Shown piece after piece: positions 17,653-31,826 of a stretch of DNA of 32,623 nt (within the stretch, counting starts at the first letter, position 1; every line of letters begins with the position of its first letter). Under the pieces are notes generated by a model that was given only the letters and a program-made list of their open reading frames with translations, was not told the DNA's origin and made no database searches. A program made the translations under genes and the position numbers. Source of the stretch: Candidatus Gastranaerophilales bacterium (GTDB taxonomy: Bacteria > Cyanobacteriota > Vampirovibrionia > Gastranaerophilales > Gastranaerophilaceae); assembly GCA_944323435.1 (NCBI GenBank), contig CALUSN010000007.1, positions 1 through 32,623 of the forward strand, written 5' to 3'.

Positions 17653-18483
17653 TTACATATCAAGACCTAAATCCATAGTAGGAGCCTTTGCAACTATTGC
17701 ACTTGAAGATATAATATCAACACCTGTTGCCGCAATATCGTGTATTGTTTCTATTTTTACATTTCCGCTTGCTTCTACAACGGCTCTGCCGGCTATTAAT
17801 TTAACACCTTCCCGCATTGTTTCTAAATCCATGTTATCAAGCATTATAATATCAACTCCGCAAGATACAGCTTCTTTAACCTGTTCTAAACTATCGCACT
17901 CCACTTCTATTTTATGCGCATGTGATATATTTTGTTTTAATTTGTTTACGGCAGATGTTAATGAACCTGCAAATTTTATATGATTATCTTTAATCATTGC
18001 ACAATCTGAAAGATTATATCTGTGCAAGCTGCCGCCTCCTGTTTTTACCGCATATTTTTCAAAAGCTCTGAAGCCAGGAGTTGTTTTTCTTGTATCAACA
18101 ATTTTGGCCTTATAATCTCCGATTGCTTTTTGATATTTATTTGTTTCTGTAGCTATACCGCTCATTCTTTGAATGTAATTTAGTGCAGTTCTTTCACCCA
18201 TTAAAATGTATCTGGCAGAACCTTTTATTTCAGCTATCTTATCTCCTTTTTTTATATGATCACCATCATTATAATAAAATTTTATCTCTATTTTTGGAGA
18301 AAGTATTTTAAATACAGTTTCAAAAACATCCTTTCCGCAAAATATACCATCTTCTCTTGTATTTAATGTACAACATAGTACATCAGACTCACCTGTTAAA
18401 TAATCTGTAGTTATATCTCCGAAGCCGATGTCCTCATTCAAAGCATTTTTTACATGTTCTTCTATAAAAAATCTATTCAACAT
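17653..18483 (-). CDS. nadC: Nicotinate-nucleotide pyrophosphorylase (quinolinate phosphoribosyltransferase)
   Basis: NadC converts quinolinate and PRPP to nicotinate mononucleotide, CO2 and diphosphate in NAD synthesis. The 276-residue length is normal. Motifs: NEDIGFGDITTDYL (16-29), GERTALNYIQRMSGIAT, DTRKTTPGFR (130-139), KTGGGSLHRYNLSD (147-160), KDNHIK, and near the end VEASGNV and VDIISSSA. I place the start at ATG 18483, which fits the family; a longer frame to 18600 only reads through the end of nadB in another frame. It overlaps nadB by 11 bases, so the two are translationally coupled. The quinolinate synthase gene nadA is not in this window. Confidence 0.96.
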   Translation of the reverse strand: MLNRFFIEEHVKNALNEDIGFGDITTDYLTGESDVLCCTLNTREDGIFCGKDVFETVFKILSPKIEIKFYYNDGDHIKKGDKIAEIKGSARYILMGERTALNYIQRMSGIATETNKYQKAIGDYKAKIVDTRKTTPGFRAFEKYAVKTGGGSLHRYNLSDCAMIKDNHIKFAGSLTSAVNKLKQNISHAHKIEVECDSLEQVKEAVSCGVDIIMLDNMDLETMREGVKLIAGRAVVEASGNVKIETIHDIAATGVDIISSSAIVAKAPTMDLGLDM

Positions 18484-20095
18484 ATAAACTTTCCCTTTCA
18501 TGTTTTTTGATAATATTTGAATGTACAGCTTCTGTATTTTTTTGAGGATAATCCGAGCGGCAATGCGCGCCGCGGGATTCTTTTCGCTGCAATGCCGCAT
18601 CTGCGATTATACCGGCTGTTGTAAGCATATTTCTGTATTCATACTCTTCTCTATTCAAACATTTTCTGTTTCGATTAAAATTCTTTTTTAATTTTTCAAT
18701 TTCTGTTTTTGCTTGTTTTAGCGCTGTCTCATTGCGTATAATTCCAACCTTGCTCCACATAAGATTTTTTAGTTCTGATTTTAAAGCCGAAATATCATAA
18801 TCTGTTTCATTTAGCGGGCTGGAGTATAAATCTATAATTCCTCGAATATTTTCATCTATTTTTTTAGGAGTTTTAAGATTTGCAAAAGATAAATAATCTG
18901 CCAGTTCATACGCACTGACTACGCATTCCAGCAAAGAATTACTTGCCAGCCTGTTTGCGCCGTGCAGTCCTGTTGAGGCACATTCTCCTATAGCGTAAAG
19001 TCCTCGTATTGATGTCCGACCTTCAACAGTAGCTCTTATTCCGCCCATACAATAGTGGGCTGCAGGGGCAACCGGAATCGGATTTTTTGAAATATCTATC
19101 CCCTTTTCGCCGCATCTTTTGGAAATAGTCGGAAATCTGTGAAAGAGTTTTATAGAATCAAGCATTGATGCGTTCAGGAAAACATTAAATTTATTTTCGT
19201 GCTGCATTTCTTTGTAAATAGCTCTCGTTACAATATCACGCGGGGCAAGTTCTCTTTTATCGTGATATTTTTTCATAAACTCTTCTCCGTGATTATTGAT
19301 AAGCTTTGCCCCTTCTCCACGTACGGCTTCTGATATAAGAAATCTGTCTTTGCTTTCAGGGCTTAAGGCTAATGCTGTCGGATGAAACTGGATAAACTCC
19401 ATATCCTGAATAATAGCTCCGGCATTATAGGCCAAATCTATACCATCACCGGTAGCCCCTTCAGGATTGGTTGTATATTTGTATAACTGTCCGACCCCTC
19501 CTGTTGCAAGTACTAATGCTGAGGTATACACGATTTCATGCTCACCGGTTAATTCATTGTATAAAATAACACCTTTGCATTCATTATCACTATCAACTAG
19601 AAGTTCAACAGCTATAGCGTTTTCCATAACAAATATATTATCATCACTGCGGACATCATTACAAAGTGCCTGAGTGATTCCTCTGCCTGTTGCGTCACCG
19701 CCGGAATGCAATATTCTCTTTATACTATGAGCTGCTTCCAGTGTAAATAAAAGATTCCCGTCTGAATCGCGATCAAATTCTACTCCGTTATTCATTAAAT
19801 CATTTATTACTTCATCAGAAGCCTGTGATATATATTCAACGGCACTTCTTTCACTTAATCCCGCGCCGGCTTTTAGGGTATCATTTATATGTTTTTCTAC
19901 ACTATCATTCGGATTTTGGTGTAATACACCTACAATACCGCCTTGTGCGTACATTGAATTGCTATTACCCAATTCTGATTTTGTAATTAATAAAAGACTA
20001 TCCGGTAAAGTTATTTGTTCTGAAATTTTTAATGCTGCATAAAGCCCGGCTGCGCCGCTTCCAACAATTACTACCGAGTATTCAGAATATTTCAT
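18473..20095 (-). CDS. nadB: L-aspartate oxidase
   Basis: NadB is a flavoenzyme oxidising L-aspartate to iminoaspartate, the first step of de novo NAD synthesis. The 540-residue product shows the FAD dinucleotide fold VIVGSGAAGLYAAL (9-22), SMYAQGGIVGVL (47-58), EFIQFHPTALAL, EAVRGEGAKLIN, and the C-terminal flavin loop CASTGLHGANRLASNSLLEC. The end SRGAHCRSDYP is typical of the fumarate reductase/NadB C-terminal domain. The start ATG 20095 has GGAG seven bases upstream. It is directly coupled to nadC downstream, and the gap of 75 bases to the upstream TPR gene holds an extended -10 sequence. Confidence 0.97.
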   Translation of the reverse strand: MKYSEYSVVIVGSGAAGLYAALKISEQITLPDSLLLITKSELGNSNSMYAQGGIVGVLHQNPNDSVEKHINDTLKAGAGLSERSAVEYISQASDEVINDLMNNGVEFDRDSDGNLLFTLEAAHSIKRILHSGGDATGRGITQALCNDVRSDDNIFVMENAIAVELLVDSDNECKGVILYNELTGEHEIVYTSALVLATGGVGQLYKYTTNPEGATGDGIDLAYNAGAIIQDMEFIQFHPTALALSPESKDRFLISEAVRGEGAKLINNHGEEFMKKYHDKRELAPRDIVTRAIYKEMQHENKFNVFLNASMLDSIKLFHRFPTISKRCGEKGIDISKNPIPVAPAAHYCMGGIRATVEGRTSIRGLYAIGECASTGLHGANRLASNSLLECVVSAYELADYLSFANLKTPKKIDENIRGIIDLYSSPLNETDYDISALKSELKNLMWSKVGIIRNETALKQAKTEIEKLKKNFNRNRKCLNREEYEYRNMLTTAGIIADAALQRKESRGAHCRSDYPQKNTEAVHSNIIKKHERESLYVE

Positions 20096-20170: not shown

Positions 20171-20947
20171 TTATCTGATATTAAGAGTAAGCATTTTTGG
20201 ATGCAATGTATCTTCTATAATAGACGCGTTTAAATCAACTGTCGGAGAATATTGCTTGGCAAGTTTTATATCTGAATCATATCCGGTTAAATCACCCATA
20301 GATTTTTTTAGCAGCGCTCTGTCTACATAAGCCCGCGGCATATTTTTATTCATATCCAGAGCCAAATCCCAGACTCGTAATGCTACATCCGGACGATTTG
20401 CAGATTTATAAACATCGGCAATGCAGGCAAAACCTGCGTATGCAGAATTATCTTTGTTGAGAATATTATTACAATATGACAATGCCTGATTATAATTGCC
20501 ATTAACTTTAAATAGCAGTGCAACTTTCAAACTGTCATTAAAAGTAATTAAATCTGATTTTACAAAATCATTTAAAGCACCTTTATAATCACCCAGAAAA
20601 AGCTTTATTTCTGCTCTGTCTTTATATAAAGTTTTAAGCTCACTCTCCGAAGCGGCTCTTGGCAGAGCTTTTATTGACTTATCCATCTCTGATATCGCGG
20701 TTTTTCTGTTAGGGTACATTTTTGCTAAATATATCGCATTGTTTCTATGAAAGAGATATGCAGTTGCATTACTGTCACCCATCATTTTGGCTATCATAAA
20801 TTTTGTATTATTGCCCCAAAAGCATAATTGAGAAAGTTTATCTCTTGGCGGAACTGCAAAAAATACAACAATAAAAAATACAATAACTATTCCTGTTAAA
20901 AGGCTCTTGTTATCTACACGGTTTCGTTTTTTAAAATCTGTAATCAT
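20171..20947 (-). CDS. TPR-repeat protein with N-terminal membrane anchor
   Basis: The 258-residue protein begins with a basic segment and one membrane helix (LLTGIVIVFFIVVFFAV, about residues 16-32), so its bulk should lie outside the cytoplasm or be membrane-tethered. The rest is helical with tetratricopeptide-type pairs, for example LFLGDYKGALNDFVKSDL, FKVNGNYNQALSYCNNIL and YVDRALLKKSMGDLTGYDSDI. TPR arrays bind proteins; the partner is unknown. The start ATG 20947 follows GAGGAAGA. A TATAAT-like sequence (20965-20970) sits upstream, but a -35 is not convincing. It lies between the HExxH peptidase and nadB in a same-strand run and may be co-transcribed. Confidence 0.75.
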   Translation of the reverse strand: MITDFKKRNRVDNKSLLTGIVIVFFIVVFFAVPPRDKLSQLCFWGNNTKFMIAKMMGDSNATAYLFHRNNAIYLAKMYPNRKTAISEMDKSIKALPRAASESELKTLYKDRAEIKLFLGDYKGALNDFVKSDLITFNDSLKVALLFKVNGNYNQALSYCNNILNKDNSAYAGFACIADVYKSANRPDVALRVWDLALDMNKNMPRAYVDRALLKKSMGDLTGYDSDIKLAKQYSPTVDLNASIIEDTLHPKMLTLNIR

Positions 20948-21002: not shown

Positions 21003-21803
21003 TTAGTTAATAAATTGTAATATTTTTTTTATATTGGTTATCTCTTTTATTTTATCATTTTTCAAAATTATATCAAATTTTTTGCATATCATCGGTGCTG
21101 TTTTTCTGGTTAACTCTTCATTTGTAAAAAATAATTCAAAAAATCTTGCCCATAGCTCAGAGTGATTATTATAATACTTATTTAATTTATTTATTTTTGC
21201 ATTTAATCTTGATAATTGCCGCTGTTTAGATTTAAGCAATATATAATCGTACTGTAATTTTGTTAAATCAGGGATGTCTGTCATTAGGCTGTTTACTGAA
21301 TATATTTTGTTGTTAAAAATTATCCTGTCATATTTTAGCAGATATTTTACAGGGCCTGACAATGTTCGTTCTATAGTTTTTAACGGAATGGTCTTTCTAA
21401 AATCCGGTAAAAAGTTTTTTATGGAAGAAGTTAATATTTTAATTTCGTTATTTAATTCGTTTTTTGTGGAATAAAATGCCAAAGCATACTCTTTTGGAAT
21501 TTTTAACACTGTTAATTTCATTAATTCTTCTGTTTCTGCAGCCGTTAAATCTTCAAATACAAAGTTTAATGATTCGAGCTTTTTATCATGACAATAATGG
21601 ATATAATGAGCAAATTCATGTAACAGTACTGATAAAGTTTCATCCCCGGCGGATTTTGCTATATCAATTCTGTAATGCTTGCCGCCCTTCGACAGGAATA
21701 CACCTTTATTCCCCCTTGCCTTATTTTTACCAATATTGATTTCTATTCCCAATGACTCTAAATATTCCGCTAAAGCTATGAGCCCGTTTCTTTTATCATC
21801 CAT
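21003..21803 (-). CDS. HExxH metallopeptidase-like protein
   Basis: The 266-residue protein has a clear zincin motif LLHEFAHYIHY at 60-70 with His62, Glu63 and His66. A second conserved-looking block ELWARFFELFF (216-226) supplies a candidate third zinc ligand, Glu216 or Glu223, in the arrangement of gluzincins related to ImmA/IrrE-type and phage-associated peptidases. No signal peptide or membrane helix is visible, so it should act in the cytoplasm. The N-terminal GNKGVFLSKGGKHYRIDIAK looks like a small beta-sheet preceding the active site. ATG 21803 overlaps the end of cutA by 28 bases, and there is no strong ribosome site, which points to translational coupling. Substrate unknown. Confidence 0.75.
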   Translation of the reverse strand: MDDKRNGLIALAEYLESLGIEINIGKNKARGNKGVFLSKGGKHYRIDIAKSAGDETLSVLLHEFAHYIHYCHDKKLESLNFVFEDLTAAETEELMKLTVLKIPKEYALAFYSTKNELNNEIKILTSSIKNFLPDFRKTIPLKTIERTLSGPVKYLLKYDRIIFNNKIYSVNSLMTDIPDLTKLQYDYILLKSKQRQLSRLNAKINKLNKYYNNHSELWARFFELFFTNEELTRKTAPMICKKFDIILKNDKIKEITNIKKILQFIN

Positions 21804-22102: not shown

Positions 22103-23491
22103 TTATATTTTAAATACTTTTCCCGGATTTAATATGTTATTTGGATCAAAAATGCGTTTTATTTTTTTCATATATTCAATAGCTGTATTATCAATAATAT
22201 TACCCAGATAAGAAATTTTTTCAATCCCTACTCCGTGTTCGGCAGAAATAGTACCGCCCAGTGATACTGCCAGATTATAGATTTCTGATTTGGCCTGAAA
22301 GTATCTTTTAAATTCTGTTTCATTATCCAGATTTAATGCTATTTGCGGGTGCAAATTACCATCACCGAGATGCCCTACCATGCAAACCTTTAAATCATAC
22401 TTATCGGAGATCTTTTTACATCCGTTTATCATACTGCTAATAGCTGAACGCGGGACTATTATATCATCAGAAAGAACATCCGGCGCGAGTTTTGCTGTTG
22501 CCGCAAAGCTAGCTCTCCTTGCTGTCCAAACCCTGTCTATTTCGTCTGGTGTGACTGCGGTTATAATATCACCTGCTCCGGCTTCAGTTAAAGCTTCTTT
22601 TACAGTATGTTCCTGATATTGCATTGATGATTCAAAACCATCTATATTAATTAAAAGCATTGCCGCTTTGTCAGTTTTCAAGCCGCAGGGATAAAATTGT
22701 TCTACTGTTTTTATGGAATTGTTATCCATGAAATCAATTGATGATGGAAATATTCTGTTTTTAAAAATATTATTTACCCCTTCCGAAACAGAGTCCAATG
22801 AATCAAAATAACCTATAATTGTTCTCTGCGCTTCGGGTTTTGGTATTAATTTTAGCTCTGCTTCAACTACAACGGCCAGTGTGCCTTCACTGCCTATTAT
22901 CAATTGATTAAGATGATATCCGACAGCATCTTTTATTGTTTTTGCGCCCAACTGAACCAGTGTCCCATCAGCAAGTACTACGGTTAAACTTAAAATATAA
23001 TCTTTTGTTGTACCATACTTAAAACCGCATGCTCCGCCCGATGACTGTGCAATACTTCCGCCTATTGTAGAGACTTTATAATTTGACGGATCCGGCGGGT
23101 AGTAAAGACCTTCACTTTCTGCCAATTCTTTTATATCACCAAGAACAACCCCGGGTTGAACAGTCATTGTCATATCATCGGGATTAAACCTAAGAATTTT
23201 ATTCATTTTTGAAAAATTAAGGACAATTCCGCCTTCCGGACAGGTGCAAGCACCAACCATATTAGTACCTGCCCCGCGGCATATAACAGGAATCTTATTT
23301 GAATTTGCGTAACGTAATATTTTTTGTACGTCTTGTATACTTTCAACAAATACCACTGCATCAGGAATTTTCAGATTCTCTGATATACAGGCAGAATCCT
23401 CCGCATAGCAATATAACTCAGCCGCGTCAGTTAAGACATTTGATTCATTTAAGATATTTTTTAAATTACCTATTTTACTTTTCAACAACAT
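22103..23491 (-). CDS. FAD-linked oxidase, GlcD/D-lactate dehydrogenase family
   Basis: The 462-residue protein is a member of the VAO/GlcD family that oxidises 2-hydroxy acids such as glycolate or D-lactate. The FAD-binding PCMH domain shows RGAGTNMVGACT (72-83), PSNYKVSTIGGSIAQSSGG and GSEGTLAVVVEAEL. The C-terminal domain shows MVGHLGDGNLHP and SAEHGVG with the active-site histidines. FeS-containing GlcF and GlcE partners are not adjacent, so the substrate is uncertain and I give no symbol. ATG 23491 overlaps the last codons of the giant coiled-coil gene by 17 bases with no clear ribosome site, so translation is probably coupled to it. Confidence 0.9.
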   Translation of the reverse strand: MLLKSKIGNLKNILNESNVLTDAAELYCYAEDSACISENLKIPDAVVFVESIQDVQKILRYANSNKIPVICRGAGTNMVGACTCPEGGIVLNFSKMNKILRFNPDDMTMTVQPGVVLGDIKELAESEGLYYPPDPSNYKVSTIGGSIAQSSGGACGFKYGTTKDYILSLTVVLADGTLVQLGAKTIKDAVGYHLNQLIIGSEGTLAVVVEAELKLIPKPEAQRTIIGYFDSLDSVSEGVNNIFKNRIFPSSIDFMDNNSIKTVEQFYPCGLKTDKAAMLLINIDGFESSMQYQEHTVKEALTEAGAGDIITAVTPDEIDRVWTARRASFAATAKLAPDVLSDDIIVPRSAISSMINGCKKISDKYDLKVCMVGHLGDGNLHPQIALNLDNETEFKRYFQAKSEIYNLAVSLGGTISAEHGVGIEKISYLGNIIDNTAIEYMKKIKRIFDPNNILNPGKVFKI

Positions 23492-26400
23492 GTGAAGCTA
23501 TTTTTTCAATACTTTTATTCAACTTTGCAATTTGTCTGTCCATACCGCCGACTTTTTTTGTAAGCTGTGCTGTGTCTTTTGGGTTCATCATAGACATAAC
23601 ATCTTCAAGTTTTGTCTCCAGAGAATTAATTTTAGCCTGCTGTGACACCATTTTATCATCAATTGCAACTAAAAATCTATTCAGAGTATCTTCAAACGGC
23701 GACATATCAATTTTATTATTCTTATTATTTATTGTAGTTTCAACAATAACTCTGTCAAGTTTAGCTTCCAGAGAAGCTATTCTTTTTGCCTGTTTATCAA
23801 ATACATTACTTAATGCTTCTATCAATTCCGTACTTTCAGTATTGTCGGCAGCTTCAGCTTTTAAATCTTCAAGCATGACTTTGATTTGTCCGATGTCATC
23901 TAAGGATTCAACTTTATCGGAAATTGAAGTTATTTGAGCTCCTGCATTATCGACCCATTCCGCAAGGTATTCAAAAATTTGATTGAATACCTGATTTGTT
24001 TTCGCTCCGCTTTGTATCATTTTATTGATGGTGCAAAGTTTATTGTCTATTTTGTCTAATCCTGATTCATGAGCGAAATTTTTGGTTCTTTCATCCAAAT
24101 CATTAATAACGAGCTTAAAGTCCTGCAAATTCTCTTGTAAAGTCTTATAAGATTCATCGGAAGCCAGTATAAGCTTATTGGTTCTTGTACTAATACTTAC
24201 GATATCTTCATTTAAGGACTCAAAGTCCCGTTTAAATTCTTCAGTATCAAATTTTGGTAATTCGGTTTTGATTGAATCTACCAGATTATAAATATTATTT
24301 GTAGAGACAATTAAGTCCTGAAGTTCCTTAGAATTATTGTTTTCCTTTAATTCATTTAATGTTAATCTTAGTTTTGCAATATCAGACTCTAAATCTTGCA
24401 AACTATATACATAATCGATATCTCCTGATGAAGAAATAATTGATGTGATTTTTTCATTTATTAAATCAATATCTTCTTTAATATCATCAACTTTTGTATC
24501 AACAACAGCCAGATTATCTTTTATATTAATGACATCTTCTGTTGTTGTAACTATATGGCTTAATACAGTTATCAGCTCGGAATGCTTTTCCTGAATAAAG
24601 TCCAAAATTTCTTCTTGTTCCGTAACAAAAGAAATTTGGTTAAAAATATTTAAAAATTGGGTAATAATATCCGTCTTTAATGTCTGCAAATCTTCCCGGA
24701 CATTTGTTCCTTGACTTTCTAGTTTTGAATTAACATCAGCCAGGCTTTGTAAAATATTATATTTTACAAGGGCATTCATCTCTGTTAATTCAGGCAAATT
24801 ATTACAGCATAGTTCACTGATATCTTCTAAATACCCGAATTGTTTTTGTATTAGCTCCTGAATTCCGCTTATCTGCGTATTTATTGACGCCTGAAATGCT
24901 TCATCAAATGATTTATTTAAAATATGAGCTTTTAAGTCCGCAAAGCTTAAGTTTAATTCATCAATTTCTCCATTTATACCATTTAAAACAGAAAGCAGTG
25001 TTCTGTAGATTTCCTCCTTGGATTCAGTAAATCTTGCGAGTAAATCCTTTGTAGTTGCTTCTATGGTATCAAATGCCTTATTATACCGGGTTGAAATTAG
25101 TTTTAACTCTTCATATTTATCAACAACAGTGTCTACAAATTTTTTGTCAAATAGATTAAATCTAGTTTCAAAATTTTGTGCAATATCCGTCTGTATAAAG
25201 TTTTGTATCTGTTTATTTAAATTATCTGCCATAGACGATATTAAAACATTATTAGCAGCTTTCATATCCTCTATACTATTTTCAAAAACACTTGCTTCAA
25301 GCAATTTACCCGATGCTGTCAGCATATTTTCTGCAGTACGACTCAATTCACTGCCAATATTATCCAGCTTGCTGTTGATAATAGACGAGTCACTTTTTAC
25401 ATCAATATATGATTTTAGTTCATTTATGTTATTGAAAATGTGATCACTAATTGCATTTTCCAGAGTTATTGCAAATTTTGAAAGTTCATCTTTCTGAGAG
25501 TCTTTAAGGATTCCAATTTGTTCTATCAAATCATTTACAATGACATCTGTTTCTTTTTCAATGTTTGTTGATAAAACTTCCACCTCATTTTTTACAAAAC
25601 CTGTTATAAAATCACGACAAGCAATGACTGTATCTTTACTTATATTTACCTGCTCAAGTATTTTATTAACAAAGCTTTCCATCGCTTGAAGTTCACCTGC
25701 CGATATATCAGCGTTTACAGCAAGTATTGAATTAACTTTATCATCAACGGAATGTTCAACTTCTTGCAAAGTTTCTCTGTTATTCGCTAATAATGTCTCA
25801 ATTACAGATGATATTTCTGATTTTGTAATATTTTTTGTCTCTTCTATCAAATCGTTAAAATTAAGACTCAAAGTCTTTAACTGTTCCTGAAAAACAGTTA
25901 TTTGAGACAATTCTTCGTGTTCTAATTTTTCATTCAGACCCTGTAGTGCAGAAATAAAATCCTGCATTTTGGTATTTAATACTTCTGCTAAATTTGAATT
26001 ATTTGCATTATATTCAGTCAGAAGATTTGCCGATTGTTCTTTAAACAATGAACTAACATTATCTGATAAACTCTTCAAGTCTGCAGAAATGTCGCCGGAC
26101 AATGTCTGTTTTATATGTAAAATTGTATCTTCAGTATCCTTATTAAGGTTCTTGATTTCTTCCATAACTCCGGTAATTTGGGAAGAAAGATTGTTTTGCT
26201 GGACTTCTGTTAAATTCGCAAATTGTTCTTTTAGCTCAGAAAGACCGCTGTTAAGAATGCCTGAATAACTGCCGATAGTCTTATTAAGATTGTCGTTTAC
26301 GGCATTTCCTGATTCTGAAATTGCAACGGCAATTCCTGTGTGTAACTTGTTGTATTCAGTGTAAAGTTCATCTAAAATTAAATCCATTTTACTCATAACC

Positions 26401-29400
26401 GAGCCGGCACTATCCACTAAAACAGCAGAAAAATCTCCTTTTAAAACATCCAACTTATTATCAAAGTCTGCGCTTAGGCTCTTCTTAATATCTGCAGCAG
26501 AATTTAACACATATTCACTTTGTTTTGCAGAGGTCTCTGCAAAGTTTGCACTCAAGCTCTTCTTAATATCTGCAGCTGAATTTAATATAGATTCATTTTG
26601 TTTTGCAGCGGTTTCTGCAAAGTTTGCACTCAGGCTCTTCTTAATATCTGCAGTTGAATTTAATATAGATTCGTTTTGTTTTACCGATATCTCTGCAAAA
26701 TTTACAAGAATATCTTCTAATTTATTTGCAATCTGAGCTGAATTTTCGCCTAATGCCATTGATAACGCTGATTTTAAACTGTTAAATTCAGCTGAAAGAT
26801 TTTCAATTAAAGCATCTTTCGTCTCTGAGACAGTTTTTACAGACGCTTCAGATAATTGATTATATCCATCAGTCAGTCTTGTGATAAAGTGATCCAGTTT
26901 GTTAATTAAAATATCTGAACTTTCTCCAAGAAGCGTTGTTATATCAGTTTTTAGATTATTAATTTCTCCGGAAATATTTTCTATTATACTTTCTCTTGTT
27001 TCAGCAGTTGATTTAAGCGAGAGGTCAGATAACTGATTATATTCATCTGACAATTGAACCAAAATAAGTTCAAGCTTGCTTATTATCAAGTCGGAGTTAT
27101 CACCAAGCGCTTCTGATAAAGCTGTCTTTAAACTGTTAATTTCACCGGATAATTTAGATACCCGATTTGTTATTTCAATGTTTAATCCAGCTGCTGCTCT
27201 TGCGATTTCACTTACTTCAAGTGTTATATCATTAAACTTTTCGCTTATAGCCTGTGATTGAACATTCAGACCTGTATCAATAAACTTTGCTATATCTCCG
27301 AGTTTGGTTTTTAAATATTCGGCAATAGAAGAATTTTGGTCTTCCATGTTTCTTGCAAAGTTATTCAAACCTTCTTTTAGTGATTTATAATCTGACAGTG
27401 AGATTTCAAGATTATCTGAGAGAATTTTCTTCAAGTTCTCTGCTAACTCAGCTAATTTATTTGCAGATTTTAAATTCTGTTCATCCATTGTTTGTTGAAG
27501 TATATTGTTCAATTCCAGAACTTTTGACTCTATTAATTTAGCCTGCTCATCATTTCTTCCGGAAATATTATTAAACAAACCTTCAACCTGCACCTTGTAT
27601 TGTTCCAGACTATTTGTAACAGACTCTCTTACAGAAGCAGATATATTTATCAGACCGTTATTTATTCTGTCCTCAAGTTTTTCGCCGGATTGCTCAAAAA
27701 GGGCTGTTATATTTTTATTTAAATCTTCAAAATTGGTTTCTATTATAGATAATTGACGTGTTAAATCTTCATCTATATTAGAATCAACAGTTTCTATTGT
27801 ATTTCTTAACTTTTCAAAATCCTTAATTATATAGTCGGCACTTTGTTGTAAATCTCCGGCTGTTTTTTCATTTAAGTTTCCTATTAGAGTCTTTAATGAT
27901 ACAAAATTATCCAATATTTTGGCTAAAGAAGAAGTCAAGGCAGAAGTAGTTGCTGTTGAAATATTATTTACAGAAGTTTCTACGTCACTGAATTTTGTTA
28001 TAATTTCATCAGCTTTAGTATTAATTCCTGAAGAGAAATCCTGTAATTGGGAATTGAATTCTGTCATAGAATTATCAATTTTTGTTACAAAATCATTCCT
28101 TACGCAATCTACAATGTCATGATTTGCACTTTCTAATTTTAATGAGGTTCCTGCAAGCTGCTCTGTTAATTCTTCAATATTAAGTTTAAGCGTACCGATT
28201 AGCTGGGCAATTTCACCTTTTAATTCATTTTTTATATTTTCTGAAACCTGCATGCTTTTTGTATGCATAGTTTCTGTTGTGAATTTTATTTCACTTATTT
28301 TATCGGCATTTTCGCAGGTAAATTCTTTTTGAAAGTCTGCAACTTTATCTAAAATTGCGTTCTTTAAGGTAATAAGTTTATTATCAAAATCTTCTTTTAA
28401 AGTTGCTGCAGTAGAAATTACGCTGCTGATATTTTCATTTACAGCCGTATTGTTAAAATTTAAAGTATCCTTCAATTCATCAAAACGCTGCTGAACTTCT
28501 ATTAGTTTATTATATGAATTTTTAATATCTTCTCTTATTGCTTCACTGTTGAGATTTAATACGGAATTGATAGTCTCTTTATGCTTTCCGAGTTCATCCT
28601 GCAGGGTTTGTATATTATTTTCAACCTGTTTTCTTGTTAAATCAATTATATCTCTTATATTTTCTATGTAACTTATGCTATTATCACTTATAGCTTTGGC
28701 AATATCATCAACTTTAGCTTCTACAGTCTCTATATTTACTTCTTTGACAGAGCTTACGTATGACAATATGTCAATAAGAGAAGATGAAATATTGTCAAGA
28801 TTGGTTTTAAAGCTGCCAAGAGCATCTGATTGCGACTGTTTAATCTCTTCTTCAACATTGTCTAACTTACTTATTAAAAGTTCATATTTGCGGAATAAAT
28901 CATCTGTAAATTTTTCGGAAAAATCATTTGAAGAACTTTCTAATGCTGCAGTTATTTCTTGTTTTGCTGCATATAAGTCAACTTTAAAATCACTTACCTT
29001 GTTTACGAAATCAAGAGCCAATACATCATTAATAGCTTGTTTTAGTCCTGAAAATTCTGTTTTTGCATTATTGATTTCAATAACAGAGGAATCAAGTTTA
29101 TAATCAAGAATTCCTGATAAGTCTTTTATGTTATTAATTTGTTCAGAAATCTGGGCAGAAGAGCTTGAAACATAGTTCTCCTGTTTTCCAAGAGATTCTT
29201 TAAGCCCTGATTCAAACATAGCCAGTCTGTCTGTTATGTTTGAAAAAATTGCATTGTTTGCAGATACACTGTTTTCATCTATTTGAGAAACCATAGATTT
29301 CAGATTTGCAATATTTTCTTCCATTTCAGAAAAACTCTTTTCGCAAAGCCCTGAAATTAGGGTTTGGGCTTGATGCAATTTTTCGCTGAGAGAATCGGCA

Positions 29401-30632
29401 TTAGAAGATAGTTCATTTAACGTCCTCGTAGCGTTTACATCAACAAGTTGAATAATTTTATCAGCCTGAATGTTAACCTGTTCTTTTATATTTTGCTCTG
29501 ATTTTGTCAAATCGGCTGCAAGAGTTTTAAAGTTAACATTGATATCGAGTGAGGATATTGCCTGGTTAATTTTTTGAATTTCTCCGTTTGAATCATTAAA
29601 AACAGTTTGTATATCGGAAAAATTATTATAAAGATTATTTAAAGCTGATTCCAGAGAATATTTAAACTCTTCAAAAGCCTTGTTTGAAGAAATCGAAACA
29701 ACAGATTCTTCCAATTGATTTAACTTATCTATTATTGCAGCTGAGACCTGTTCGTCTTTATCAGCAATAATAGTTTTCAGTCCTGCTATGATTTCGACAG
29801 AAGCATCTATTTTATCAGCCAGATTATCTATTTTGTAATACTTATCTGCCAGATTGTCTATAGATTGTGTCAGTAGCTGTTCCTGAGAAGCCAGGTCACT
29901 TATCCACTTCTTTGTGCTTATTAAATCATCACGTGTCGCAAGTTCTTTTATGGCATTTTCTATTTGAATATTTTTCTTATCTAAAACCTGCAAAGCTGAC
30001 AAAATAGTATTTGAGGAATTTACAATATCAGTCAGTTCTTTGCCGAAATGTTCTATTGACTCTGCAGGATTCAGCCCTGATATAGTTTTTATTATTGTTT
30101 TAAAATTTTCATTCAGGTTAAGAACGATTGAATCAAATCCGTTTGTAAGATGTTCTATATCATTTTTCAGGAAAGAAACGCTTTTTACTATTTCTTTTTT
30201 CTGTGAATCATCAGTTCTTATTGCATCTAAGCGCATGATAATATCAGAGAGTGTTTCTTTTTGAGAAACGACTTCTCTCGAAAATACAGAAAGATTTGTG
30301 GCGACAATATCAAATAATTCTTTTACTTCACTTGTTTTTAAAGTTTCTGAACTGTTTTTTAATAAATTAGAAAATAATGACTCTATTGCTCCAAATTTAG
30401 ATATAAGCACGCTGTGACGTTCATCCAGATTCTGTTTCAATTCGGACAGGAATATTTTTATAAGTTCAATATCTTCATCGGTATTTATTTTTTCCAGTTT
30501 TGAATTTATGCCGGATAATAGTTTATCTACATCCGATGTATTTAATATACCCTGAGCCCGTATGGAATTAAGCAGGGTTTTTATTGTATCAAAATTTTCT
30601 GTTATCTCCGTAAAATTATTTATATCTGCCAT
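23475..30632 (-). CDS. Giant 2385-residue coiled-coil/apolipoprotein-like helical protein
   Basis: This single uninterrupted reading frame covers 22% of the window. It has no signal peptide, membrane segment, catalytic motif or adhesin-type domain. It is almost all amphipathic helix, rich in Leu, Ile, Ser, Asn, Asp, Glu and Lys, very poor in Pro and aromatics, with many short conserved patterns such as ISSxLxxI and SKLExIL. Repeats are visible inside it: two 59-residue units at residues 1163-1280 plus a partial third, and three 26-residue units at 1318-1395. The last 120 residues (RIASLEAKLDRV, KINSLETKLEDV, KLNKSIEKIASH) are a more regular coiled coil. Such proteins usually form cytoplasmic filaments, scaffolds or chromosome-associated machines. 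The start ATG 30632 has only a weak GAG site but a strong promoter (30668-30696). The homology remains unrecognised. Confidence 0.85.
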   Translation of the reverse strand: MADINNFTEITENFDTIKTLLNSIRAQGILNTSDVDKLLSGINSKLEKINTDEDIELIKIFLSELKQNLDERHSVLISKFGAIESLFSNLLKNSSETLKTSEVKELFDIVATNLSVFSREVVSQKETLSDIIMRLDAIRTDDSQKKEIVKSVSFLKNDIEHLTNGFDSIVLNLNENFKTIIKTISGLNPAESIEHFGKELTDIVNSSNTILSALQVLDKKNIQIENAIKELATRDDLISTKKWISDLASQEQLLTQSIDNLADKYYKIDNLADKIDASVEIIAGLKTIIADKDEQVSAAIIDKLNQLEESVVSISSNKAFEEFKYSLESALNNLYNNFSDIQTVFNDSNGEIQKINQAISSLDINVNFKTLAADLTKSEQNIKEQVNIQADKIIQLVDVNATRTLNELSSNADSLSEKLHQAQTLISGLCEKSFSEMEENIANLKSMVSQIDENSVSANNAIFSNITDRLAMFESGLKESLGKQENYVSSSSAQISEQINNIKDLSGILDYKLDSSVIEINNAKTEFSGLKQAINDVLALDFVNKVSDFKVDLYAAKQEITAALESSSNDFSEKFTDDLFRKYELLISKLDNVEEEIKQSQSDALGSFKTNLDNISSSLIDILSYVSSVKEVNIETVEAKVDDIAKAISDNSISYIENIRDIIDLTRKQVENNIQTLQDELGKHKETINSVLNLNSEAIREDIKNSYNKLIEVQQRFDELKDTLNFNNTAVNENISSVISTAATLKEDFDNKLITLKNAILDKVADFQKEFTCENADKISEIKFTTETMHTKSMQVSENIKNELKGEIAQLIGTLKLNIEELTEQLAGTSLKLESANHDIVDCVRNDFVTKIDNSMTEFNSQLQDFSSGINTKADEIITKFSDVETSVNNISTATTSALTSSLAKILDNFVSLKTLIGNLNEKTAGDLQQSADYIIKDFEKLRNTIETVDSNIDEDLTRQLSIIETNFEDLNKNITALFEQSGEKLEDRINNGLINISASVRESVTNSLEQYKVQVEGLFNNISGRNDEQAKLIESKVLELNNILQQTMDEQNLKSANKLAELAENLKKILSDNLEISLSDYKSLKEGLNNFARNMEDQNSSIAEYLKTKLGDIAKFIDTGLNVQSQAISEKFNDITLEVSEIARAAAGLNIEITNRVSKLSGEINSLKTALSEALGDNSDLIISKLELILVQLSDEYNQLSDLSLKSTAETRESIIENISGEINNLKTDITTLLGESSDILINKLDHFITRLTDGYNQLSEASVKTVSETKDALIENLSAEFNSLKSALSMALGENSAQIANKLEDILVNFAEISVKQNESILNSTADIKKSLSANFAETAAKQNESILNSAADIKKSLSANFAETSAKQSEYVLNSAADIKKSLSADFDNKLDVLKGDFSAVLVDSAGSVMSKMDLILDELYTEYNKLHTGIAVAISESGNAVNDNLNKTIGSYSGILNSGLSELKEQFANLTEVQQNNLSSQITGVMEEIKNLNKDTEDTILHIKQTLSGDISADLKSLSDNVSSLFKEQSANLLTEYNANNSNLAEVLNTKMQDFISALQGLNEKLEHEELSQITVFQEQLKTLSLNFNDLIEETKNITKSEISSVIETLLANNRETLQEVEHSVDDKVNSILAVNADISAGELQAMESFVNKILEQVNISKDTVIACRDFITGFVKNEVEVLSTNIEKETDVIVNDLIEQIGILKDSQKDELSKFAITLENAISDHIFNNINELKSYIDVKSDSSIINSKLDNIGSELSRTAENMLTASGKLLEASVFENSIEDMKAANNVLISSMADNLNKQIQNFIQTDIAQNFETRFNLFDKKFVDTVVDKYEELKLISTRYNKAFDTIEATTKDLLARFTESKEEIYRTLLSVLNGINGEIDELNLSFADLKAHILNKSFDEAFQASINTQISGIQELIQKQFGYLEDISELCCNNLPELTEMNALVKYNILQSLADVNSKLESQGTNVREDLQTLKTDIITQFLNIFNQISFVTEQEEILDFIQEKHSELITVLSHIVTTTEDVINIKDNLAVVDTKVDDIKEDIDLINEKITSIISSSGDIDYVYSLQDLESDIAKLRLTLNELKENNNSKELQDLIVSTNNIYNLVDSIKTELPKFDTEEFKRDFESLNEDIVSISTRTNKLILASDESYKTLQENLQDFKLVINDLDERTKNFAHESGLDKIDNKLCTINKMIQSGAKTNQVFNQIFEYLAEWVDNAGAQITSISDKVESLDDIGQIKVMLEDLKAEAADNTESTELIEALSNVFDKQAKRIASLEAKLDRVIVETTINNKNNKIDMSPFEDTLNRFLVAIDDKMVSQQAKINSLETKLEDVMSMMNPKDTAQLTKKVGGMDRQIAKLNKSIEKIASHVVEK
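26448..26681 (-). repeat. Three 78-bp tandem repeats in the giant gene
   Basis: Three in-frame 78-bp copies (26604-26681, 26526-26603, 26448-26525) encode 26-residue units of the type KQNESILNSTADIKKSLSAN plus FAETAA, at residues 1318-1395. The copies are nearly identical in DNA (the marker CTTCTTAATATCTGCAG recurs at 26481, 26559 and 26637), which points to recent duplication or ongoing homogenisation. Confidence 0.85.
26793..27146 (-). repeat. Two 177-bp repeats (59 residues) in the giant gene
   Basis: Units at 26970-27146 and 26793-26969 encode 59-residue copies that begin GEINxLKT and end ExxxxAL/SIIENxS, each with YNQLS in the middle (residues 1163-1221 and 1222-1280). A partial third copy (AEFNSLKSALSMALGEN) runs on to about residue 1310, directly before the 26-residue repeats. 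Confidence 0.8.
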
Positions 30633-30667: not shown

Positions 30668-30696
30668 ATTATATACTAATATAAAAATAGTGACAA
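30668..30696 (-). promoter_or_regulatory. Strong promoter of the giant coiled-coil gene cluster
   Basis: On the minus strand TTGTCA (30691-30696), 17 bases, perfect TATAAT (30668-30673). The leader is about 28 bases. From here the genes down to nadC all run in the same direction with overlaps or short gaps. Confidence 0.7.
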
Positions 30697-30724: not shown

Positions 30725-31309
30725 ATGAATTATATATTTTTTATTCTTATTACGGCATCTATACTTGCAGGAATTTATAACCATACGCTTGATAAAGTTG
30801 TTAATTCCATGCTCGGGGCATGCAATACGGCAGTAGAAGTTTCCTTTTCTTTAATAGGTATAATGGCTTTTTGGCTGGGTATTATGCGCATTGCCGAGAA
30901 AAGCGGGCTTGTGCGCATGCTATCAAAAGTTCTGTATCCGGCAACAAAATATTTATTTAAAAACGTAAAAAATGACAGTCCGGCTATTGGTGACATTACA
31001 ATGAGTGTTACCGCAAACGCACTCGGTTTAACGAATGCAGCAACTCCTATCGGATTAAAGGTTATGAAAGAATTACAGGAAGATAATCCGGATAAAACAA
31101 AAGCTACCGATGCAATGTGCATGTTTTTAGGGATGAATACTGCCGGCTTTCAAATCATTCCTGCAACTGTGATAGCTATTCTAGTCGGGTTCGGGGCTGC
31201 GAATCCGACAGATATAATTATCCCGACTTTTATTGTAACCTCACTCTCATTTATTACGGCAATTATAACTGCATTAATCCTTCAAAAAGTTTGGAGGAAA
31301 TATGATTGA
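30725..31309 (+). CDS. spmA: Spore maturation protein A-like (nucleoside recognition/Gate domain)
   Basis: The 194-residue membrane protein is an SpmA: about five hydrophobic helices with the Gate/nucleoside-recognition pattern FWLGIMRIAEKSGLVRMLSK, TMSVTANALGLTNAATPIG and MFLGMNTAGFQIIPATVIA. In Bacillus, spmA and spmB affect spore core dehydration. Homologues are also found in many bacteria that do not sporulate, where a transport role is suspected. ATG 30725 has no obvious ribosome site; a nearby alternative ATG at 30721 is in another frame. It overlaps spmB by 8 bases and is divergent from the giant gene. Confidence 0.93.
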   Translation: MNYIFFILITASILAGIYNHTLDKVVNSMLGACNTAVEVSFSLIGIMAFWLGIMRIAEKSGLVRMLSKVLYPATKYLFKNVKNDSPAIGDITMSVTANALGLTNAATPIGLKVMKELQEDNPDKTKATDAMCMFLGMNTAGFQIIPATVIAILVGFGAANPTDIIIPTFIVTSLSFITAIITALILQKVWRKYD

Positions 31310-31826
31310 AAAGTTTTCATTACTTCTTTTACCATTTATGATTTTGATTATTTTATCTGTCGGACTCATAAAAAAGGTTCCTGTATATGAAGAATTTATA
31401 GAAGGAGCAAAGGACGGGTTTAAAGTTGCTGTTTCAATAATTCCGTATCTTGTTGCTATAATAGTTGCGGTTTCAATGTTTAGAGCCTCGGGTATACTTG
31501 ATATTTTTAAAACTTTTGCAAATAATTTTGTACCGCCCGATATTATACCTCTGATATTTACAAGACCCCTGTCCGGCTCTGCGGCGCTCGGCTTATTTTC
31601 GGATATAGTAAAAGAATTTGGTGCAGATTCTTATATTGCTAAATTAGCAGCAATTATGACAGGCAGTTCTGAAACAACCTTCTATGTTTTAGCCGTTTAC
31701 TTTGGCTCTGTTGGTATAAAAAAATACAGATATGCTCTTCTGACAGGTTTGATTGCCGATTTTATCAATATTGTACTGTCAATTTGGGTGGCTCGTATGT
31801 TTTTTCTTGCCAGCAACGTGTTGTAG
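31302..31826 (+). CDS. spmB: Spore maturation protein B-like (nucleoside recognition/Gate domain)
   Basis: The 174-residue membrane protein pairs with SpmA. It shows FIEGAKDGFKVAVSIIPYLVAI, MFRASGILDIF, RPLSGSAALGLFSDIVKEFG and MTGSSETTFYVLAVYFGSVGIKK, all standard for SpmB. The start ATG 31302 has a strong GGAGG. The two genes are coupled by an 8-base overlap. No other sporulation gene is present in the window. The last 62 bases overlap a convergent zinc-ribbon gene. Confidence 0.94.
   Translation: MIEKFSLLLLPFMILIILSVGLIKKVPVYEEFIEGAKDGFKVAVSIIPYLVAIIVAVSMFRASGILDIFKTFANNFVPPDIIPLIFTRPLSGSAALGLFSDIVKEFGADSYIAKLAAIMTGSSETTFYVLAVYFGSVGIKKYRYALLTGLIADFINIVLSIWVARMFFLASNVL

Follow-up and report, generated by a model that had tools for sequence, protein, structure and literature searches.

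A conserved giant coiled-coil-rich protein of the Gastranaerophilales as a candidate cytoplasmic filament or scaffold

Among the cytoskeletal proteins of bacteria, those of the HMW2 type in Mycoplasma are very large, nearly all-helical and cytoplasmic, and thereby analogous to the protein described here. For dimers of the actinobacterial DivIVA-like hendecad proteins Scy and FilP, alanine-rich hendecad cores are reported, and Scy, with more than 1000 residues, consists almost entirely of hendecads (PMC9858780). Crescentin forms filaments that are built of parallel coiled coils (PMC10873595) and is thought to act together with MreB (PMC7766704). Coiled-coil content alone is no proof of filaments, since HmpF of Synechocystis is rich in coiled coils but formed no such polymers (PMC7766704).

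Here we analyse a stretch of 32,623 nucleotides from a Candidatus Gastranaerophilales bacterium (contig CALUSN010000007.1), referred to as the window. Its longest open reading frame by far encodes a protein of 2385 residues, the runner-up having 540. A preliminary description of the window had pointed to this gene as the largest, with a strong promoter, and had read its product as a helical cytoplasmic filament or scaffold encoded at the head of a metabolic cluster. The size was correct, and the gene lies on the minus strand, which had not been mentioned. The features of the locus are collected in Table 1.

Table 1. Positions of the giant gene, its parts and its neighbours in the window
Feature	Position	Strand	Basis or remark
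Giant coiled-coil protein gene	23475..30632	minus	2385 aa + stop; ATG at 30632, stop at 23475; homologues and purifying selection
N-terminal helical cap, aa 1-300	29733..30632	minus	conservation; AlphaFold2 model all-helical
Hendecad (11/3) rod, about aa 330-1716 (about 1390 residues)	25485..29645	minus	hydrophobic periodicity; phase-preserving indels
Length-variable part of rod, aa 1150-1550	25983..27185	minus	alignment gaps up to 87%
78-bp (26-aa) tandem repeat within rod, 3.1 copies	26462..26703	minus	
C-terminal cap, aa 1902-2385	23478..24929	minus	order-wide signature; all-helical low-confidence model
Promoter TTGTCA-17-TATAAT of the giant	30668..30696	minus	11/12 consensus; conserved across genus
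Overlap of giant stop with glcD start, 17 nt	23475..23491	minus	glcD ATG lies within the codons xAT-GTN of an [H/N/Y]-V pair
GlcD-like FAD-linked oxidase, 462 aa	22103..23491	minus	PF01565, PF02913; TIGR00387 448 bits, below 568-bit cut-off
Presumed CutA-like protein, 105 aa	21776..22093	minus	homologue in nearly every same-genus locus reaching that far
Putative metalloprotease with HEFAH motif (HExxH), 266 aa	21003..21803	minus	motif seen in the sequence; adjacent in most loci
TPR-like protein, 258 aa, variable follower	20171..20947	minus	weak TPR matches
Presumed NadB-like protein, variable follower	18473..20095	minus	conservation across loci
Presumed NadC-like protein, variable follower	17653..18600	minus	conservation across loci
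Divergent Gate-domain (SpmA-like) membrane protein	30725..31309	plus	PF07670; genus-constant upstream neighbour
Divergent Gate-domain (SpmB-like) membrane protein	31302..31826	plus	PF07670; genus-constant upstream neighbour

Conservation and distribution of the giant gene

A search of 34 genomes of the genus, including the window's own, revealed a homologue of the giant in all 33 others, some copies being cut by contig ends. The matched segments of the gene are free of stops, with the exception of a single in-frame TAG in one segment of genome G001. Pairwise dN/dS ratios, which are rough with dS near saturation, are about 0.05-0.13 when the entire gene is taken and about 0.03-0.08 for the caps alone. 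An open reading frame by chance is excluded by these homologues together with the low ratios, which indicate strong purifying selection on the gene. In one locus (L094:1100-5662) the frame is shortened to 1520 residues though the C-terminal cap follows, due to either a frameshift or an assembly error.

The preliminary description had proposed a search for length variants in related genomes, and these were indeed found: full-length giants of the genus, as measured in the fetched loci, comprise 1889-2550 residues, and members of the family across the order roughly 0.7-2.9 thousand. Likewise, the claim of a strong promoter proved sound. In a scan of 14.5 kb, no site has a higher sigma-70-like score than the promoter and a single one, within the gene, equals it; the same element recurs upstream of the giant throughout the genus.

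With a profile of the C-terminal region made from the own genus, relatives were detected in 330 of 383 sampled genomes of the order, representing 37 of 52 genera. The own-genus profile A1 missed the diverged members G128, G131, G141, G147, G181 and G185, which were found by the cross-genus profile A4. The latter matched 193 of 289 sampled genomes of the class, and all but six of these belong to the order. The six matches outside are weak (E 4.5e-6 to 9.4e-4), as is the one match outside the order in a sample of the phylum (E 3.9e-4). Judged by these profiles, nothing convincing was found outside the Gastranaerophilales among the samples searched, and the protein family appears to be confined to this order. 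It is present across nearly the whole taxonomic family f1 and also in f6 and f7, whose members are shorter (748, 812 and 1453 aa). In a few members of the taxonomic family no copy was detected, so that the giant is not essential everywhere. By sequence the protein family appears nameless in the libraries searched; it may have been listed before as a hendecad protein, for example in the 2023 survey by Martinez-Goikoetxea and Lupas.

Conserved caps, a hendecad rod and its changes in length

The giant is all-helical, with two conserved ends. In comparison with 26 relatives from the genus, identity is about 82% over residues 1-150 and 95% over the final 35 residues, and the C-terminal cap carries an order-wide signature (Y[ST]LxDhExDhAKhR ... 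SISxRTNKLxLxSDE ... hhEWhD). Structure prediction in segments, a check proposed earlier, yielded AlphaFold2 monomer models that are all-helical for both caps but of low confidence (pLDDT 70 and pTM 0.40 for the N-terminal cap, pLDDT 64 for the C-terminal cap).

The hydrophobic residues form a continuous helical stripe. Their periodicity peaks at 3.66 residues with a power of 6.0 versus 1.0 in shuffled sequences and is strongest in the rod. All 27 giants of the genus that were examined peak at 3.62-3.66, and members from other genera have a related peak between 3.54 and 3.66. The centre of the stripe is composed of I, L, V, M or F at 82% and of Ala at 1%, Lys is enriched at its flanks and Asp and Glu are found opposite. 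The whole protein contains 5 Pro among its 2385 residues and has a pI of 4.5. Coiled-coil-type hydrophobic periodicity over an extended helical region, as observed here, is a characteristic of bacterial intermediate filament (IF)-like proteins.

Residues 1200-1450 of the giant are mostly gaps in its relatives. Were the rod a single helix whose stripe is oriented, insertions and deletions would be expected to comprise near-integer numbers of turns. For the 44 gaps of at least 4 residues in 11 species pairs, which are not fully independent events, the cosine averaged 0.62 when 3.636 residues per turn were assumed (expected standard deviation 0.11) and -0.07 with 3.5 residues per turn. As a control, random deletions were simulated and recovered by the same aligner, and after subtraction of the natural gaps their cosine was 0.08. 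The alignments indicate that length changes of the rod between species preserve the helical phase. Such phase-keeping indels would preserve a natural trace of how selection acts on a very long helix.

Two separately conserved caps flanking a rod of variable length would also be in agreement with a protein that does not polymerise but, as a long tether or spacer, bridges by its length the distance between two partners, such as pole and nucleoid or envelope and cytoplasmic machine. At full extension, the protein would reach about 350 nm (2385 x 0.1485 nm), which is comparable to cell dimensions. However, a pure ruler would hold its length, whereas that of the giants varies widely both within the genus and within the order, and apart from glcD, cutA and the HExxH gene there is no conserved adjoining gene that could encode a partner. 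We consider a tether unlikely.

Hydropathy analysis gave no signal peptide and no membrane segment (maximum Kyte-Doolittle mean over 19 residues 1.1), and no enzyme domain was found with Pfam. Profile searches of both caps against the PDB delivered weak, mostly coiled-coil matches only, and the giant has no close match among solved structures. The earlier statement that signal peptide, membrane segment and anchor are absent is in line with the hydropathy, and the two observations that it had named as counter-evidence, a secretion or anchoring signal and a clear enzymatic domain, were looked for by the methods mentioned and not found. The terms helical and cytoplasmic are supported by the sequence. 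A phage tape measure was discarded as a candidate, there being no PHROGs match. FliG, searched in 65 genomes, occurs in the own genus and several others and is missing from g18-g29, so that flagella are patchy in the family; a flagellar role was rejected because g18-g29 carry giants.

The Pfam family Apolipoprotein A1/A4/E (PF01442) matches the giant narrowly above its cut-off (91.3 versus 90 bits). Together with the 11/3 stripe, its lysine-enriched flanks and the acidic residues opposite, and with a stripe centre poor in alanine, unlike the cores of Scy and FilP (PMC9858780), this match would suit an apolipoprotein-like amphipathic protein that lies on a lipid surface such as the inner membrane. 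However, the rod is strongly acidic (-1.3 per 18 residues), and lipid-binding character was not found in it: the mean D factor is -0.08 and 2-6% of the windows exceed the lipid-binding threshold of 0.68, the D factor being a discriminant and no assay. Other coiled-coil families also match the giant in a generic manner. SpiroCoCo_C (NF047515) does so at aa 70-334 with 19.3 bits, far below the cut-off of 125, which reflects generic coiled-coil similarity. The PF01442 match is likely to represent generic 11-mer similarity, and a location of the giant on lipid surfaces is accordingly given a low probability by us.

The overlap with glcD and the neighbouring genes

The overlap of the giant's stop with the start of a glcD-like gene, noted before, is exact and conserved: it comprises 17 nt in all 30 loci of the genus in which both genes are readable. 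Among 20 loci from other genera, 16 have an overlap of 11, 14 or 17 nt, three have the two genes side by side with a gap between them, and at the remaining locus, L167, the giant has no glcD neighbour. Since stop and start overlap in such a conserved manner, translational coupling of glcD to the giant is plausible, and translation of the giant might set the level of GlcD, as the preliminary description had proposed. No AGGAGG-like site was seen directly upstream of the glcD ATG, which is compatible with coupling but no proof of it. A role for the giant in regulating or chaperoning the GlcD-like oxidase, for example as a scaffold of a metabolic complex, would agree with the conserved overlap but is highly improbable, because some lineages (G110, G141, G181, f6 and f7) encode the family member away from glcD, so that its role is not tied to the enzyme, and glcD also occurs without a giant neighbour in related families. 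Outside family f1 (L217, L218; G036, G045), the gene after glcD encodes about 410-430 aa. Its product has Fe-S/CCG domains in L218 and is GlcF-like there; the gene was not seen beside glcD in giant-bearing loci.

The designation as head of a metabolic cluster holds in part. Constant followers of the giant are glcD, cutA and the HExxH gene, whereas the TPR-nadB-nadC genes come next in no more than about half of the genus. The SpmA- and SpmB-like genes diverge upstream. The cutA gene, absent from the preliminary description, follows in all loci of the genus that reach that far, with the single exception of L055. We take its product to be CutA-like from recognition of the sequence, and the NadB-like and NadC-like proteins are presumably named correctly by recognition of their sequences. 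A Pfam scan of the 266-aa HEFAH protein gave no match. The CutA-like and HExxH genes overlap by 28 nt (21776-21803), and in several further loci these two genes overlap as well.

Cytoskeletal context and comparison with known systems

MreB (TIGR00904) was found over cut-off in none of the 48 Gastranaerophilales genomes tested, versus all seven genomes sampled from outside the order. This model and its curated cut-off were chosen because the matches to Pfam PF06723 looked like DnaK; these were mostly open reading frames of ~610-640 aa scoring 60-85 bits and were rejected as DnaK cross-hits. An mreB gene has been reported for Vampirovibrio, which does not belong to the order (PMC4451040). Bactofilin (PF04519) exceeded its cut-off in one of 55 genomes, and there marginally. 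Another very large protein of the order, an open frame of 4146 aa around 30421-34116 of G119:C1, has weak bactofilin-like matches.

In our analysis, the cytoplasmic filament or scaffold of the preliminary description remains the best reading of the giant. It is reasonably probable that the protein has a structural role in the cytoplasm, as a coiled-coil-rich rod whose caps serve docking or assembly, and that it founds an order-specific family. This is suggested by the hendecad peak, the phase-keeping indels, the contrast of conserved caps and variable rod, the lack of a membrane segment or signal and of matches to catalytic families or solved structures, the wide presence in f1, f6 and f7, and the low lipid-binding discriminant. 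The hendecad rod would form a nearly straight alpha-helical spacer of changeable length between the caps and might self-associate through its bulky hydrophobic stripe, and the two conserved helical caps would mediate assembly or docking to partners. In this way the giant could function as Scy/FilP, crescentin and other IF-like or scaffold proteins of bacteria do. That glcD is co-transcribed with it and translated by coupling across the overlap would be secondary.

A more far-reaching proposal is that the giant family provides the main load-bearing cytoskeletal element in an order without MreB and essentially without bactofilin, namely a hendecad filament that has no relation to the bacterial cytoskeletons known so far and in which phase-keeping indels drive the evolution of rod length. 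We regard this as quite unlikely. MreB was not found in families f2-f5 either, yet these are mostly without a giant-family protein, and a replacement of MreB by the giant is therefore not implied by the distribution alone. Being conserved and specific to an order of widespread, barely studied gut bacteria in which MreB was not found, this structural candidate turns the organisation of cell shape and interior without MreB and bactofilin into a testable question with one target gene.

Like Scy and FilP, the giant has a long hendecad rod, is predicted to be cytoplasmic and contains no enzyme domain. Unlike them, its stripe centre consists of I, L, V and F instead of an alanine-rich core, a Pfam scan of the whole giant gave no match to DivIVA, the N-terminal motif of Scy and FilP, and its caps are unrelated by sequence search in a protein from a different phylum. 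Two defining features of Scy/FilP, the nearest hendecad family, thus seem to be missing. With crescentin and other bacterial IF-like proteins the giant shares a coiled-coil rod with terminal regions and the probable cytoplasmic location, but it is far longer, mainly hendecad and a candidate for filament assembly only, and in contrast to the setting of crescentin, its order is one in which MreB was not found. By description, it can also be likened to the cyanobacterial coiled-coil-rich proteins HmpF, Slr7083, Syc2039 and Fm7001 (PMC7766704), with which it shares both the richness in coiled coils and the phylum.
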